Positions 27,507-63,274 of a stretch of 64,000 nt of DNA are shown piece after piece. Origin of the DNA: Candidatus Polarisedimenticolia bacterium (lineage in GTDB: Bacteria > Acidobacteriota > Polarisedimenticolia > Gp22-AA2 > AA152). The notes under the pieces were generated by a model. That model was not told the origin of the DNA. It did no database searches and worked only from the letters and a program-made list of their open reading frames with translations. Location of the stretch: NCBI GenBank assembly GCA_036004685.1, contig DASYRE010000046.1, forward strand, positions 1 through 64,000, in the 5' to 3' direction. Both the position numbers and the translations under genes were made by a program. Every line of letters begins with the position of its first letter. Within the stretch, counting starts at the first letter, position 1.

Positions 27507-29702
27507 ATGTCCGAGCCTCAATTCAACGCCAATACAGGATTCGCTCTCCTCGGAGAGCTGGCCCGGCTGACGGCCCCTCCGGCGGACAGCGACGAGATCT
27601 GCGACCAGGGGCTCGCCCTGATCGCCAAGGCCCTCGGCGCCCAGGCAGCCCTGGGGTTCGAGACGGCGGAGCCGAGCCCGGCGCTGCGCCTCACATGCCG
27701 CTGGGGGAGGCCGTCTTCCGAAGATCTCGGCGCGCTGGCCGAGAGAACGGCGTCCTTGGGCGAACTGACCGAGGAGAAGGGACCTGGCGGGACGTCTTCG
27801 CGGCGCGTGGCGATCCCAATCGCCGACGAAGCGGGCGTCATGGGGGTGATGGTGCTCGAAGCCCCGGCGCGCTGGAACGCCACCGCGCGCCTCTTTGTCC
27901 AGAGCGCGGCGCGGACGCTCGGCGCCGCGCTGCGGGTCCAGCGCATGCTGGAGGAGACGCACCGGCAGGGGGAGCTCCTGGCCCGGCGGAACATCGAGCT
28001 GGAGGTGCTGCGCGAGTTGGTCGGCTCTCTCCAGGGCCTCGAAGACGAGGAGGAGATCCTGCAGACGGCTCTCGACCTGGTCCTCCAGCGGCTCGGGCTG
28101 ACCGCGGGGTGGGTCTTCTGGGGTGAGGCGAGCAGCGGAGAGCTGGGCCTGGCCGCCGCGCGCGGCGTCGCGAAGAAATTCGTGATCGAGGCGCGCGAGA
28201 AGGGGATCGGAGGCTGCCTGTGCAAGGACGTCTTCGAGACCGGGCGCCTGCGCTTCGCGAGGAACACGACCGAGTGCCCGCGCCTTCCCGATCTGGTCCA
28301 AGGCACCGAGCCGATGACCCACGCCTGCATCCCTCTGAAGTTCGAGCGGGGGACGCTCGGGGTGATGAACATCGCCAACCGGCCCGGCCGGCTGTTCTCG
28401 CCGCAGGAGCTGCAGTTCCTGGAGACCTTCGGCAACCAGGTCTGCCTGGCCGTCGACAAGACGAGGACGGCGCGCGCCGAGAGCCGGAGCAACGCCGAGG
28501 CTAAGGCGCTCGCCTCGCTCGCCCGCGCCATCGGAGGAAGCCTCAAGGAGGAGCACGTCCTCTCGGCGCTGGCCGATTACACGCGGGAGCTGCTGAGCGC
28601 CGACGTGTGCGCCATCTTCCTGGGCGAGAAGCCCTCCTCCCTGCTGTTCGCCCATCTTTCCGGACCGCCGATGGAGGGGCTGGAAGTCGGCCGTTCCGTG
28701 GACCTCGAGGCGATCGGCTCCCGCGCCTTCTCGAGCGCTCTGAACCAGCGCGCCTCGATGGTCGTCCCCAACGCCCTGGAGGATCCGCGCGGGAATCCCC
28801 AGCTGGCCCGCCGCTGGGGCATCGGATCGGCGATCATCATCCCCCTACTGGCCCACGACCGTCCTTGCGGGCTCCTCGTCGCGGGGCGCTCGCAGCCCTC
28901 GAATTGGAGCGAGGAGGAGATGAAGCTGGCCGATGCGCTCGCCGGCCAGGCGGCCGTCGCCATCGACAACGCGCGCCTCTACCGGGAGGCGCAGGACGCC
29001 TTCCTACGTCTCCAGCAGGCCCAGTACGGTATGATGCGGGCCGAACGGATGGCGACGGTCGGGACGCTGGCGTCGTCCTTGGCGCACGAGGTCCGGAACC
29101 CGCTCAACTCGATCAACCTGCAGCTAGTGCTTCTCGCCCGGCGGGTCGCCAAGCTCGGAGCCCAGGAGGAGATGGCCGGGCTGCTCGAGACGGCGCGGCG
29201 CGAGATCGCCCGGCTCGACAGCCTGGTGGAGGAGTTCCTGTCGCTCTCGACGATCGACCGGATCTCCCTCGCCGCGGCGCAGCCGGAGGAAGTGGTCCGC
29301 GAGGTGACCGCCCTGCTGGCTCCGATGGCACGCACCCGCGGCATCGAGGTCTCGGAGGATCTCGACGGCCCGCTCCCGCCCATCTCGATGGATCGGGAGA
29401 AGATCAAGCAGGTGCTGATCAACGTGGTGCGCAACGCCATCGAGGCGATGCCGGAAGGGGGATCGCTGCGCCTGTCGATCCGGCGGAGCGACGAGATGGT
29501 GGCGATCGACGTGGCCGACACCGGGACCGGGATCGCCCCGGGCCTCGACGTGTTCGACTTCTTCGTCAGCACCAAGCGGGGAGGCACCGGCCTGGGATTG
29601 CCGATCGCCCGGCGCATCGTCGAGGGCCACGGCGGCTCCCTGAGCTATCGCAGCGATCCGGGCCGGGGAACCACGTTCACGATCGCGTTGAAGGCCCGAT
29701 GA
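27507..29702 (+). CDS. Triple-GAF sensor histidine kinase
   Basis: 731 residues, no membrane segment. Three GAF-type sensor domains occupy about residues 15-150, 165-312 and 333-485. A coiled segment and the HisKA domain follow, with the phospho-accepting His at about residue 527 in SLAHEVRNPLNSI. The HATPase domain has the N box NVVRNAIEAMPEGG, G1 ADTGTGIAPG and G2 GGTGLGLPIA. GAF2 holds Cys residues in GGCLCKDVFETG and ARNTTECPRLP, which could bind a cofactor. As a soluble kinase it should sense a cytoplasmic signal and phosphorylate the adjacent NtrC-family regulator 34 bases downstream. Architecture is of the NtrB/ZraS-like class. Confidence 0.92.
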   Translation: MSEPQFNANTGFALLGELARLTAPPADSDEICDQGLALIAKALGAQAALGFETAEPSPALRLTCRWGRPSSEDLGALAERTASLGELTEEKGPGGTSSRRVAIPIADEAGVMGVMVLEAPARWNATARLFVQSAARTLGAALRVQRMLEETHRQGELLARRNIELEVLRELVGSLQGLEDEEEILQTALDLVLQRLGLTAGWVFWGEASSGELGLAAARGVAKKFVIEAREKGIGGCLCKDVFETGRLRFARNTTECPRLPDLVQGTEPMTHACIPLKFERGTLGVMNIANRPGRLFSPQELQFLETFGNQVCLAVDKTRTARAESRSNAEAKALASLARAIGGSLKEEHVLSALADYTRELLSADVCAIFLGEKPSSLLFAHLSGPPMEGLEVGRSVDLEAIGSRAFSSALNQRASMVVPNALEDPRGNPQLARRWGIGSAIIIPLLAHDRPCGLLVAGRSQPSNWSEEEMKLADALAGQAAVAIDNARLYREAQDAFLRLQQAQYGMMRAERMATVGTLASSLAHEVRNPLNSINLQLVLLARRVAKLGAQEEMAGLLETARREIARLDSLVEEFLSLSTIDRISLAAAQPEEVVREVTALLAPMARTRGIEVSEDLDGPLPPISMDREKIKQVLINVVRNAIEAMPEGGSLRLSIRRSDEMVAIDVADTGTGIAPGLDVFDFFVSTKRGGTGLGLPIARRIVEGHGGSLSYRSDPGRGTTFTIALKAR

Positions 29703-29736
29703 GCGCGCCGGCGGCGCCGGCGCCGGGCGGAGGCCC

Positions 29737-31164
29737 ATGAGCGAGGCGCAGGGACGCATCCTGGTCGTCGACGACGAGGAGACGGCGCGCAAGAGCCTGG
29801 GCCAGATCCTGTCGGACGACGGCTACGAAGTCTTGCTGGCGGCAGACGGCGGAGAGGCGCTGCGCCTCGTAGCGCAGGAGTCGCCCGCCGTCGTCCTCAC
29901 CGACTTGAGGATGCCGGGCATGGACGGCCATGAGCTCCTGAACCGCGTCCGCCAAGGCTACCCCGACGTCTCGGTCGTGATCATGACGGCGCACGGCACG
30001 ATCCGCAGCGCGGTCCAGGCTCTGCAGGAAGGCGCCGAGGACTACCTGACGAAGCCGATCGACGTGGAGGAGCTGGAATACCTGCTCGGCCGCATCCGCA
30101 AGAGGAAGTCGCTCCTGGCCGAGACGCGCATGCTGCGCGAGCGGCTGGACGACAAGTACCGGTTCGAGAACATCATCGGGCGCAGCCCTGAGATGCTCGA
30201 GGTCTTCCGCCTCGTCGAACAGGTCGCTCCCACCCAGGCGTCGATCCTGATCGGCGGCGACAGCGGCACCGGCAAGGAGATGATCGCCCAGGCGATCCAC
30301 CAGCGCAGCCCGCGCCGCGAGGCGCCGTTCATCAAGGTCTCGTGCGCCGCCCTGCCCGAGACCCTGCTGGAAAGCGAGCTGTTCGGCCACGAGCGCGGCT
30401 CCTTCACCGGCGCGGTCGCCCGGCGCTCCGGGCGGTTCGAGCTGGCCGCCGGCGGCACGATCTTCCTCGACGAGATTGGCGACATCCCGGCGGGGATGCA
30501 GGTCAAGCTCCTCCGCTTCCTCCAGGAGAGGCAGTTCGAGCGGGTCGGGGGAAACCAGACGCTGACGGTCGACGTCCGGGTGATCGCCGCGACCCACCGG
30601 AACCTGCCGAACCTGATCCGGGAAGGGAAGTTCCGTGAGGATCTCTACTACCGCCTCAACGTCATCGAGATCGTCATCCCGCCCTTGAAGACGCGCAGCC
30701 AGGACATTCCGCTGCTCGTCGATTTCTTCCTGCACAAATTCGCCCAGGCGAACGCTAAGGAGATCACCGGGCTCACGGAGGAGGCCCTGGCCGCTTTGAT
30801 GAGCTATGCCTGGCCCGGGAACGTGCGCGAGCTGGAGCACGCCATCGAGCGGGCGGTGATCCTGGCGCGCGAGCCGGTGATCGATCTGTCCCTGTTCCCG
30901 ACGCTGCCGCGCCTGGAGCCGGTGACCCGGAAAGCGGCGGGACTGGCCATTCCGGGTGCCAGCCTGGCCGACATCGAGCGCGACGCCATCCAGCGGACGC
31001 TGGAGGCGGTGGGCGGCTCCACCGCCCGCGCGGCCGACATCCTGCAAATCAGCCCGCGGACCATTCAATACAAGATGAAGCAGTACCGCTCGCGCGGCGT
31101 CGCCATCGACGAGAGGCGGGAGAAAGAGCCAAAGGAAGAAGCCGCGGACGGACCGGAAGAGTAG
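29737..31164 (+). CDS. NtrC-family sigma54-dependent response regulator
   Basis: 475 residues. Receiver domain (1-120) with acidic pocket VVDDEE, phospho-acceptor Asp56 in [11 protein letters not shown] and Lys in YLTKPID. AAA+ domain (~145-380) with Walker [10 protein letters not shown] at about 173, the sigma54-contact loop GSFTGA near 221 (usual GAFTGA, Ser for Ala), Walker [12 protein letters not shown] and the arginine finger in YYRLNV. C-terminal Fis-type helix-turn-helix [21 protein letters not shown]. It requires sigma54 holoenzyme. It follows the kinase gene, with GGAGG before its start, so the two form a two-component system. Candidate targets are the sigma54 sites near 34551, 57814 and 58068. 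Confidence 0.95.
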
Positions 31165-53148: not shown

Positions 53149-54136
53149 TCAGATCGGCAGGTGATAGCCGGTCAGGGCTTTCACGTACTGGGCGCGCTCG
53201 AAGGCGGAGGGGTCGGCGCAGGAGCGCTGGTTCATGCTCCCCTTGAGCTGATAGACCGAGACGTACTCGTGCTCCTCCATCCAGCGGACGAGCCCGGCGC
53301 GGATCTCGGCAAGGTGCGGGATGCCGCGCCGCAGGAGCGCCGAGCAGATCATCGTCACGTCGGCCCCGACCATCAGCATCTTCAGCACGTCCTCGTGGGT
53401 GGCGATCCCGCCGGTGGCGGCGAAGCTCGCCTCGATGTGCCCGTCGAGGATGGCGATCCAGCGCAGCGGCAGGCGCATCGCCTGCGGGCTACTCAGCAGC
53501 ACGCGCGGCAGGACCTCGAGGCTCTCCAGGTCGATGTCGGGCTGGTAGAAGCGGTTGAAGAGCACCAGGCCGTTGGCCCCGGCCTCCACCAGCTTCTTCG
53601 CCATGTTGGCGGGCGCGCTGAACTGCGGCCCCAGCTTGACCGCCAGAGGCAAGCTCACGACCGAGCGGACCTGGCGGACCACTTCCAGCATCCGCTCCTC
53701 CACCTGCGCGCCGGTGGTGTCGGGGTCGGTCGGGATGGTGTAGAGGTTCAGCTCCAGCGCATCCGCGCCGGCCTGCTCGATGTCCCGGGCGGTGTCGAGC
53801 CAGCCTCCGAGCGAGGCGCCGTTCAAGCTGGCGATCACCGGGATTTCGACGGCGTTCTTGGCGCCCAGGACGTGCTCCAGGTATTCCAGGGTCCCGAAGC
53901 GGAACTCCTTCGGCTCGGGAAAGTAGGTGAGCGACTCGGCGAACGACTCGGTGCCTTTCGAGAGGTAATGCTGGATCGTCAGCGCCTCCCGCTCGATCTG
54001 CTCCTCGAACAGCGACTGCAGCACCACGGCTCCGGCGCCGGCGTCCTCCATGCGCCGCAGGTTGTCGAGGTCCTCCGACAGCGGGGACGCGGAGGGGACG
54101 AGCGGGTTCCGCAGATCCAATCCCAGGTAGCTGGTC

Positions 54137-54147
<11 letters not shown>
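53149..54147 (-). CDS. Dihydroorotate-dehydrogenase-like flavoprotein
   Basis: 332 residues, FMN-binding TIM barrel of the dihydroorotate dehydrogenase-like group: TSYLGLDLRNPLVPSASPLS, ALELNLYTIPTD, LPLAVKLGPQFS and GANGLVLFNRFYQPDIDLE. In true DHODs a Cys or Ser base lies in the segment where these homologues differ, so pyrimidine synthesis is unlikely. Its start overlaps the end of nifJ by 11 bases with its own AAGGAAGG, so the two are co-translated. This pairing is common in bacteria and suggests the protein works with the ferredoxin oxidoreductase, perhaps as an accessory electron carrier. Role unproven. Confidence 0.82.
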
Positions 54148-57733
<3,586 letters not shown>

Positions 57734-57805
57734 GATGCGTTCCCTCCCCAGCTCCCGCGGATGACAGGCCGCCCGCCATCTCCTTGACGCCACGCTCTTT
57801 GAAAC

Positions 57806-57821
57806 AGCAGATTCCGTGCCA
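57806..57821 (-). promoter_or_regulatory. Sigma54 promoter of nifJ
   Basis: Minus-strand TGGCACGGAATCTGCT against the consensus TGGCACG-N4-TTGCW: seven of seven bases at -24, four of five at -12 (one C for T), GG-N10-GC spacing exact. Expected start of transcription near 57794, 60 bases before the nifJ ATG. Confidence 0.75.
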
Positions 57822-57924
57822 TTCGAATCTGGCCCATCAGGCGCTTCCCGAGTGAGCCCCGTGGGACGACGCGAATACTTTGCTCCCCCCCTGCCCGCCC
57901 CGCGCAATTTTTTCCGATTCACTT

Positions 57925-57947
57925 GATCTGGTTCAGGAAGTCAGATC
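57925..57947. promoter_or_regulatory. Inverted repeat, candidate enhancer
   Basis: GATCTG-N11-CAGATC. The arms are perfect and the centres are 17 bases apart, suiting a dimer. It sits 104 bases from the nifJ sigma54 site and 114 from the divergent one, the usual distance of NtrC-type upstream activating sequences. Confidence 0.4.
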
Positions 57948-58060
57948 TTCAGGGAGTGCTCGCGGCGGGTCTGCACCCAAAGCCACCTCGATGAGATCGT
58001 CTGGAAAGGACGCGCCTCCGTTCCCTAGGCACTTCCCGGCGTCCGTCCCGCGAAGCGCAC

Positions 58061-58076
58061 TGGCATGCACTCTGCT
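58061..58076 (+). promoter_or_regulatory. Sigma54 promoter of the 71-residue gene
   Basis: TGGCATGCACTCTGCT: six of seven bases at -24 and four of five at -12, with exact GG-N10-GC spacing. The start would be near 58088, 77 bases before the ATG at 58165. Confidence 0.6.
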
Positions 58077-58164
58077 TAGTCGACAGAGAGGACGCACGAG
58101 GGCGCGTAAAGCGATGGTGGTCGGGGCCGCGAGGCGAACCCGCCGCCATGGCGAAGGAAAGAAG

Positions 58165-58380
58165 ATGAGCGATCCGGAAAGACTCCGCGGGCAAATCAGG
58201 CAGATCAGGTCCCTCATCTTTGCGGCCCGCCAGCGGATTGCCGGCCTGCGGCCCATCTGGGGCGCTTACCTGGCCGGGGAGACGATGAACGGCCTGGACG
58301 AAGCGCTGGACCAGCTGGAGAAAGAGATGGGGCTGGCGCCGAAGGCCGAGAAAGGCCTGAGGATGCCCCGTCACTGCTAG
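58165..58380 (+). CDS. Small helical protein, unknown function
   Basis: 71 residues, charged and helical: MSDPERLRGQIRQIRSLIFA, then ETMNGLDEALDQLEKEMGLA. No membrane segment and no recognised family. AAGGAAAGAAG lies upstream. It is divergent from nifJ and appears to have its own sigma54 promoter, so it may belong to the same regulon. The frame past its stop continues as SPGVDVEAIMLETAK before another stop, hinting at readthrough or a longer ancestor. Confidence 0.55.
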   Translation: MSDPERLRGQIRQIRSLIFAARQRIAGLRPIWGAYLAGETMNGLDEALDQLEKEMGLAPKAEKGLRMPRHC

Positions 58381-58685: not shown

Positions 58686-60140
58686 ATGACCCTCTCGACC
58701 AACAAGCGACTCCGCGTCACCGGCTTTCTGAGAGTTCTCGCCTGGAGCCCCTTGGGTCTCTCTGGGCTCGGGCTCGCGATCGTGTCGGGGATCCTTCTGC
58801 TCCTGTTCGCGTTTGCCGGACCGCTCGGAATCGAGACCGGACCCTATTTCGGAATCGTCGCCTGGATTCTGTTACCGGCCCTCTTCGTCCTCGGTTTGCT
58901 GTTGACGCCTATCGGTTACTTGCGCGCCCGCCGGCGGCTGTCGGAAGGCGACGCCGTGCAGAAACTTGCGTTGCCGATCCTGGATTTCAACAATCCGCGT
59001 CTTCGTCGGAACCTCCTCCTCTTCGTTGGACTCAGCTTCGCCAACTTGCTGATTCTTGGCATGGCGTCGTATCAAGGCGTGCACACCATGGAGTCCAACG
59101 CCTTCTGCGGCTTGACCTGCCATAGAGTCATGGAACCGGAGTACACCGCTTTCCAGTTCTCGCCGCATGCGAGCGTGAAATGCGTGGATTGTCACGTCGG
59201 ACCCGGCGCCACCGGTTTCGCGCGTGCGAAGCTCTCCGGAGTGCGGCAGCTCTTCTCCGTGGTCCGAGGAAGCTATGCTCGTCCCATTCCAGCGCCCGTC
59301 GAGAACCTTCGTCCGGCGCGCGAGACCTGTGAGGCCTGCCACTGGCCGGCCGAGGATCATGGAGATCGCCTCCGGATCCGGGAGCGCTACAACGATGACG
59401 AAAAATCATCCAGGCGTACGACGGTGCTGCTTCTCCACGTCGGCGGCGCCATCAAGGGAGGAGGCGAAGGACACGGAATCCATTGGCACATGAATCTCGC
59501 GAACGAGATCACCTATCTCCCTGTCGATAGGGAGAGGACCAAGATTCCGTGGGTGAGGCTCAAGGACGCTGCGGGGAGGATCACCGAGTTCTCGGTCGCC
59601 GATTCAGGCTTGTCGAAGGAAGAGATTGCCAGGGCACCCAAGCGAACAATGGACTGTATCGACTGCCATAATCGCCCGGCCCACCGCTTCAGCCTGCCCG
59701 AAGAGGCCGTGGACGAAGCAATCCGTGAGCGTGGGCTGGATCGGAACCTTCCTTACTTGAGACGCGAGATGATATCGGCGCTGAAGGCGTCCTATATCGA
59801 CAAGTCAGCGGCACAGCGTGGAATCGCCGAGTCTCTCGCGAAATTCTATCGGGAGAGTTATCCGGAAGTCTCCGCCAGCTCCCAAGCAGCGATCGGTAAA
59901 GCCGCCGCGGCGGCGCAGGTCATCTACGAGCGAAACGTTTTCCCCGGAATGAGGGTGGGATGGGCCGTCCATCCGGATCACCTCGGCCACGAACACGCTC
60001 CGGGTTGCTTCCGATGCCACGATGGTGAGCACAAGAGTTCTGACGGCAGGGAGATCAGCCAGGACTGCGGGACGTGTCATACCCTGTTGGCGGTCGAGGA
60101 GGAGGAGCCGCCGATTCTGAAAACGCTCGCAGGGCAGTAG
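58686..60140 (+). CDS. NapC/NirT-type multihaem membrane cytochrome c
   Basis: 484 residues. Three membrane helices near the N-terminus (LSGLGLAIVSGILLLLFAFA; FGIVAWILLPALFVLGLLLT; LLLFVGLSFANLLILGMASY) are followed by haem sites: CGLTCH (CX3CH, atypical), CVDCH, CEACH, CIDCH, CFRCH and CGTCH. The NAFCGLTCHRVMEPEYTAF opening is typical of the NapC/NirT-related quinol dehydrogenases, which pass electrons from menaquinol or ubiquinol to periplasmic partners. The ATG at 58686 follows GAGG. The four-haem cytochrome encoded convergently just after it is a likely partner. Confidence 0.88.
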   Translation: MTLSTNKRLRVTGFLRVLAWSPLGLSGLGLAIVSGILLLLFAFAGPLGIETGPYFGIVAWILLPALFVLGLLLTPIGYLRARRRLSEGDAVQKLALPILDFNNPRLRRNLLLFVGLSFANLLILGMASYQGVHTMESNAFCGLTCHRVMEPEYTAFQFSPHASVKCVDCHVGPGATGFARAKLSGVRQLFSVVRGSYARPIPAPVENLRPARETCEACHWPAEDHGDRLRIRERYNDDEKSSRRTTVLLLHVGGAIKGGGEGHGIHWHMNLANEITYLPVDRERTKIPWVRLKDAAGRITEFSVADSGLSKEEIARAPKRTMDCIDCHNRPAHRFSLPEEAVDEAIRERGLDRNLPYLRREMISALKASYIDKSAAQRGIAESLAKFYRESYPEVSASSQAAIGKAAAAAQVIYERNVFPGMRVGWAVHPDHLGHEHAPGCFRCHDGEHKSSDGREISQDCGTCHTLLAVEEEEPPILKTLAGQ

Positions 60141-60187: not shown

Positions 60188-60751
60188 TTACTTGCCAGCC
60201 GGCTTCTGGGGATTCGGATGCGCAATCTTCGCGCTGGCGGTCGCGAAGTCGAATCCCTTGTGCGTCGGATTTTCAGGGTTGTGGCAGTGCTTGCAAGTCT
60301 CCTCGGACGGCACAACCAATCCCGCCGCTGCCGCCTGCGCATGATCCTTCATGACGGCCATGGAATAGTAGTCTCCGCCGGCGCCGTGGCAGGACTCGCA
60401 TCCGACACCTTCCTCCGCCTTGTACTTGTCGGTCAGCATCTGGGCCGGGGCCCCGTAGCCGGTCACGTGGCACTTGAGACATTCGGGAGCTTTCTGCGGA
60501 TCGGCGATCCCCTTGGCTGCCCCCACTTTCTTCGCTTCTTCGGTGCCGAGTGTGGCGAAGGCCTGAGCGTGCTTCGACTGGGCCCACTTGCTGTACTGCG
60601 CTCCCTTCGCCGGCGAGTTGTGGCACAGCTTGCATTTCTCTGAGCCCACGAACTTGTGCGCCGCGCCGGCTGCCCCCGCTTCGCTCAAACACAACCCAAG
60701 CGCCGCGAAGGCCGCAAGACTCGTCAGGGTCAACGCGCCGAACCGCTTCAT
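60188..60751 (-). CDS. Periplasmic tetrahaem cytochrome c (c554-like)
   Basis: 187 residues. Signal peptide (FGALTLTSLAAFAALGLCLS), then four CxxCH haem sites: CKLCH, CLKCH, CESCH and CKHCH. The pattern GSEKCKLCHNSPAKGAQYSK and FATLGTEEAKKVG is that of the cytochrome c554/c-prime family. The periplasmic carrier could take electrons from the NapC-like protein encoded convergently. GGAGG lies upstream of the ATG at 60751. It has a plausible sigma70 promoter with an overlapping inverted repeat. Confidence 0.9.
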   Translation of the reverse strand: MKRFGALTLTSLAAFAALGLCLSEAGAAGAAHKFVGSEKCKLCHNSPAKGAQYSKWAQSKHAQAFATLGTEEAKKVGAAKGIADPQKAPECLKCHVTGYGAPAQMLTDKYKAEEGVGCESCHGAGGDYYSMAVMKDHAQAAAAGLVVPSEETCKHCHNPENPTHKGFDFATASAKIAHPNPQKPAGK

Positions 60752-63019: not shown

Positions 63020-63274
63020 AAGACCCGCCGACCTTCCGGAGAGACTCCCTGGGGCGATCTTGAGGAAGGCAGCCTCCGCCGCTGGTGGACATGGATTAAC
63101 CTTCTGATTAACATGAAGTTCCCCATGCCCCGGCGGGGCCGATTCGGCCCTTTGCCGGTGGCCGGACCCCCGGCGCCTCTTCATTATTTAAGGGGCCGCG
63201 GCGCCTGGGGCCGTGCCTGGCGAAAATAATTCGCGCCGCTGGAACGGGCCGGCTTGGCGGCGCAGGGTGATGGC

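Follow-up and report, generated by a model that had tools for sequence, protein, structure and literature searches.

The 64-kb stretch of DNA analysed here (the window) carries on its minus strand a nifJ gene for a pyruvate:ferredoxin (flavodoxin) oxidoreductase (PFOR) of 1198 amino acids (54137-57733). The protein is a full single-chain PFOR, as it scores 1782 bits with TIGR02176 (cut-off 911) and contains the Pfam domains POR_N, POR, EKR and PFOR_II. The end of nifJ is overlapped by a minus-strand gene encoding a dihydroorotate dehydrogenase-like (DHOD-like) protein (53149-54147; NF005741, 481.6 bits versus a cut-off of 303), and the two genes likely form one operon. In the original prediction, sigma54 control of PFOR with such a partner was regarded as non-standard. 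The partner is in itself ordinary: of 91 loci with room for it, 75, from many phyla, have a DHOD-like gene as the same-strand neighbour of nifJ.

On the other side of nifJ, beyond a gap of 431 bp (57734-58164), the plus strand encodes a 71-residue ORF (58165-58380) and, downstream of it, a NapC/NrfH-type multiheme cytochrome c (58686-60140; PF03264, 2.5e-10) that is possibly cotranscribed with the small gene. A c554-like multiheme cytochrome gene on the minus strand (60188-60751) is convergent with the NapC/NrfH-type gene. Both cytochromes have counterparts in a related genome, G011: the NapC-type gene has one at 47% identity, in the neighbourhood of nifJ and of a gene for a sigma54 activator, and the c554-like protein is 39% identical to the product of a c554-type gene. 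At the edge of the window, a gene for a P-type ATPase with a C-terminal hemerythrin domain begins at 63257 and runs past the window end (L034:9257-11734).

The gap between nifJ (ATG at 57733) and the small ORF contains two matches to the sigma54 -24/-12 element, arranged back to back. One, TGGCACGGAATCTGCT (57806-57821, minus strand), points toward nifJ and is predicted to start transcription at ~57795, which leaves 62 nt to the nifJ ATG. The other, TGGCATGCACTCTGCT (58061-58076, plus strand), points toward the small gene with a predicted start at ~58087, 78 nt from its ATG (58165). Both 16-mers have the exact GG-N10-GC spacing and fit the TGGCAYG-N4-YTGCW context. Scored with a matrix built on the published sigma54 consensus with our own hand-set weights (maximum 18.3), they reach 17.7 and 17.3, respectively, and rank first and second across the whole window, the third-ranked site scoring 16.0. 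The weight-matrix scan thus confirms the places, orientation and spacing given in the original prediction, whose starts (57794 and 58088) are close to ours.

All genome-wide counts for this genome come from pattern searches. The strict pattern TGGCAYGN4YTGCW occurs eight times in the 3.84-Mb genome, twice inside the nifJ gap, versus five matches for the backward control, so a single strict match means little. When the region was shuffled 20,000 times under a first-order Markov model, by comparison, 0.065% of the shuffles had at least one equally good site and none had such a site on each strand; a divergent pair within one 431-bp gap is therefore far beyond chance. It could be argued that both matches are fortuitous, given the GC-rich DNA and the lack of genome-wide enrichment of the strict pattern by itself, and that nifJ is read from an unrecognised sigma70-type promoter. 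We consider this very unlikely, in view of the shuffles, of the absence of any visible sigma70-like site in the gap, and of the recurrence of the element upstream of nifJ in the class at ~50 times the expected frequency. A search for known RNA elements found none. The gap does include an 8-base run of A and T only (57906-57913, GGAAAAAATTGCGC), as does the divergent nifJ gap of the related genome G006 (L005:5401-5408, GGAGAAAATTTTGC); such runs are absent from the remaining sigma54 gaps examined.

This recurrence was measured by scoring the 300 bp upstream of nifJ at 101 loci, 22 of them in genomes of the same class and 79 in named genomes elsewhere. A strong site (correctly oriented, with a matrix score of at least 16) precedes nifJ in six class genomes (G000, G006, G010, G018, G026 and G040) and is absent from the other 16 class loci, from all 79 loci outside the class and from all 101 reversed controls. 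At the background rate of 10 matches per 301 kb, ~0.11 class sites would be expected by chance, versus the six seen. In a NifJ tree built on a reduced set of sequences, one clade, with full support, unites G000, G006 and G010, each of which has the site; the NifJs of G018, G026 and G040 fall elsewhere, scattered among NifJs without sites, which points to several gains or losses. In the comparison across related genomes that the original prediction proposed, the nifJ-side site recurs, the inverted repeat discussed below is not conserved, and the small gene is present in two of the 396 phylum genomes searched.

In Klebsiella, nifJ is a NifA/sigma54 gene, which already speaks against the statement in the original prediction that sigma54 control of PFOR is not a standard description. 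The gene name and the apparent sigma54 dependence match this precedent, and the locus could on these grounds belong to a nitrogen-fixation (NifA) regulon. However, no nifH above the family cut-off was found in this genome or in the five relatives with the site, in a search that, as a control, gave matches over the cut-off for 3 of 14 known genomes, and the partner genes at the locus are cytochromes. We rejected a nif regulon as extremely improbable.

Judging from its codon-position GC (0.66/0.46/0.85, versus 0.62/0.66/0.61 for the same frame immediately before the ORF, i.e. a GC3 of 0.85 versus 0.61) and from a relative in G018, the small ORF is coding. The two proteins are 33% identical along a 55-residue alignment (E 7e-9) and share a conserved W-x-x-YLAGET motif, the YLAGET core of which is invariant between them. 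No Pfam or NCBIfam model matches the 71-residue protein. AlphaFold2 predicts a two-helix hairpin (helices 3-25 and 31-54; pLDDT 78), for which a fold search returned generic two-helix matches and nothing significant; perhaps it is an accessory or regulatory protein. The family has two members among the 396 genomes of the phylum searched, and a profile search of these genomes, plasmids and species genomes revealed no further ones; weak profile matches above E 0.001 were unrelated where inspected. The G018 relative has a sigma54-like site, TGGCACACGGGATGCA, in the same relation to the gene as TGGCATGCACTCTGCT and at the right distance. With the coding signature, this makes it likely that the small gene belongs to a sigma54 regulon, as originally proposed.

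Divergent arrangements that face cytochrome genes also occur in relatives. In G006, the pair CGGCATGCGACTTGCT / TGGCACGACGGTTGCT separates nifJ from a 48-residue ORF followed by a monoheme cytochrome c gene, and the partner site TGGCACGACGGTTGCT is perfect. The corresponding pair in G040, TGGCACTGCGATTGCA / CGGCATGATTCGTGCT, faces a cytochrome c that is 43% identical to that of G006; its partner site is weak (14.5). Among the six closest class homologues of this cytochrome c, the one in G034 has a strong site (17.1) in a suitable position, no nifJ being found next to the gene, and the one in G011 has a site scoring 16.5 that lies ~1.2 kb upstream. The G018 relative of the small gene faces a multiheme cytochrome gene, and each side has a sigma54-like site (TGGCACACGGGATGCA and TGGTACGTGTGTTGCT). 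In G006, the nifJ transcript is predicted to begin with a leader of ~217 nt, and a long hairpin in it, AAGGCCCCTCCGCC...GGCGGAGGGGCCTT (L005:5110-5160), is possibly an attenuator; no Rfam family matches the sequence covering it.

These arrangements bear on a more restricted reading, in which only the nifJ-side promoter is truly sigma54-dependent and the match on the small-gene side is a lucky one, or the ORF unimportant. It would agree with the recurrence of the nifJ site in six genomes and of the small gene in two, and with the sizeable chance count of the strict pattern genome-wide (8 versus 5 in the control). Nevertheless, it is unlikely, because the small-gene site has a score of 17.3 with the right orientation and distance, the ORF has a codon-position GC typical of genes, its sole relative likewise has an appropriately spaced sigma54-like site, and the partner site in G006 is perfect. 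On the sequence evidence, we think it probable that the gap holds two back-to-back sigma54-dependent promoters, driving nifJ with the DHOD-like gene on one side and the small gene on the other, under NtrC-type activation.

The machinery for such control is encoded in this genome, with one rpoN (1.1e-62) and 26 strong matches to sigma54 activators. One of the 26 is a kinase/regulator pair within the window (27507-31164); nothing was found that ties it to the promoters in the nifJ gap. Elsewhere in the genome, on contig C51 at ~36.67-36.71 kb (L215:13174-13211), a second divergent sigma54-like pair (TGGCACGACCCTTGCT and CGGCACACTTCTTGCT, ~20 bp apart) separates a small lipoprotein-like gene from a CBS-domain-like one. 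On the same contig, two outward-pointing sigma54-like sites (L215:1601 and 4577) flank a kinase and an NtrC-type activator, a candidate self-contained regulon.

In two relatives, activator genes are found close to the loci of interest. The small-gene locus of G018 adjoins genes for a protoglobin histidine kinase, a PAS kinase and an NtrC-type activator. In G011, which belongs to the same taxonomic order as the window, nifJ and the DHOD-like gene lie within ~7 kb of a kinase/activator set of the G018 type and of the NapC-type counterpart. The two activators are 77% identical, and G011 has further sigma54-like sites before its activator and before its PAS kinase. The G011 region L211:3900-14600 also encodes c554-type cytochromes and a single ORF in which cytochrome b is joined to a nine-haem domain, together with the protoglobin kinase, the PAS kinase and the NtrC-type activator, the last of these preceded by a strong sigma54 site (7988, minus strand).

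The activator at our locus could then be an oxygen-sensing protoglobin kinase/NtrC system similar to NmpU/NmpR of Myxococcus xanthus. NmpRSTU combines a protoglobin kinase with an NtrC-like activator and governs an oxygen-use regulon by way of sigma54, and protoglobin-type kinases sense oxygen in AfGcHK/NmpU; PFOR is not among the NmpR targets considered here (PMC11841059). The likeness of this system to the sets beside the cytochromes of G018 and close to nifJ of G011 favours the idea. In contrast to NmpRSTU and to these relatives, the present genome lacks proteins with a protoglobin domain, and its nearest match to the G011/G018 activator is not a close one (48% identity), so similarity to that activator could not be used to assign one here, and no good site of the NmpR-like form GCGCA-N5-TGCGC was found in the nifJ gap. 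For the present genome this assignment is doubtful; protoglobin-type activation may hold for the relatives and not here.

Sigma54-dependent promoters usually have an upstream activator site in the form of a dyad. Between the two predicted promoters lies an inverted repeat, GATCTG-N11-CAGATC (57925-57947), 104 and 114 bases from the two sigma54 sites, as described in the original prediction, in which it served as a proposed shared enhancer. An enhancer would suit its midway position, at ~140-150 bases from each of the predicted starts, and this is the sole point in favour. The gap contains three six-base dyads versus 3.4 expected, so the repeat is not above chance; it has a single exact copy in the genome and is missing both from the gaps of the relatives and from the other upstream regions with sigma54 sites in this genome. 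The proposal of a shared enhancer is therefore not supported. Nor did any common dyad rise above shuffles across the sigma54 upstream regions of this genome and its relatives.

The closest published parallel is por (DVU3025) of Desulfovibrio vulgaris, which is transcribed from sigma54-dependent as well as sigma70-dependent promoters, with the sigma54-dependent regulator LurR as its activator (PMC6456213). Sigma54 control of PFOR is thus a known type of regulation and not a new one, contrary to the original prediction, although the D. vulgaris regulome paper stated that, as of 2015, sigma54-dependent pyruvate and lactate genes had not been reported from other taxa (PMC4641369). In both systems the PFOR gene lies directly behind a sigma54 site (PMC6456213, PMC4641369). 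The Desulfovibrio regulators are sigma54-dependent response regulators, and one of them, NrfR, acts on nrfHA, encoding a nitrite reductase with an NrfH-type cytochrome, and also binds the LurR sites upstream of por (PMC6456213). The two systems differ in their partner genes, as por heads a lactate operon (DVU3025-3033) whereas nifJ here is accompanied by the DHOD-like gene only and is divergent from the small gene and the NapC/NrfH-type cytochrome gene. In addition, the LurR motifs lie 250-389 bp upstream of the por start codon, whereas no LurR-like motif (GTC-N10-GAC) was found here or in any of the gaps of the six genomes with the nifJ site. A search of a limited set of papers found no report of the present setting, which is weak evidence of absence. 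We regard the locus as a new member of the sigma54-PFOR group, of interest because it is paired back to back with cytochrome genes and because it includes a new small protein of no known family.

Most likely, the locus belongs to a low-oxygen or anaerobic-respiration sigma54 regulon that couples pyruvate oxidation to c-type cytochromes and includes an orphan helical-hairpin protein. The sigma54 polymerase would wait at both promoters until an NtrC-type activator, possibly one shared by the two, opens them. One promoter would then drive nifJ and the DHOD-like gene, and the other the 71-residue gene and perhaps also the NapC/NrfH-type multiheme cytochrome. The trigger would most likely be a shortage of oxygen or of another electron acceptor, a signal suggested by the biochemistry of PFOR and by the protoglobin kinases that G011 and G018 encode. 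As a result, the oxidation of pyruvate to acetyl-CoA and reduced ferredoxin would be raised together with periplasmic electron-transfer proteins. More tentatively, and with slightly less than even confidence, we suggest that the class has a sigma54 regulon in which back-to-back promoters, with a low-oxygen/acceptor switch, link PFOR to periplasmic c-type cytochromes, with the W-x-x-YLAGET protein as a dedicated member.

PFOR stands at a branch point of fermentation, carbon fixation and anaerobic respiration. The orphan small protein gains its first functional lead from this setting. If PFOR and cytochrome genes do share sigma54 promoters, the class would have an activator-gated switch for pyruvate oxidation that resembles the one in sulfate reducers and was reached with different partner genes.
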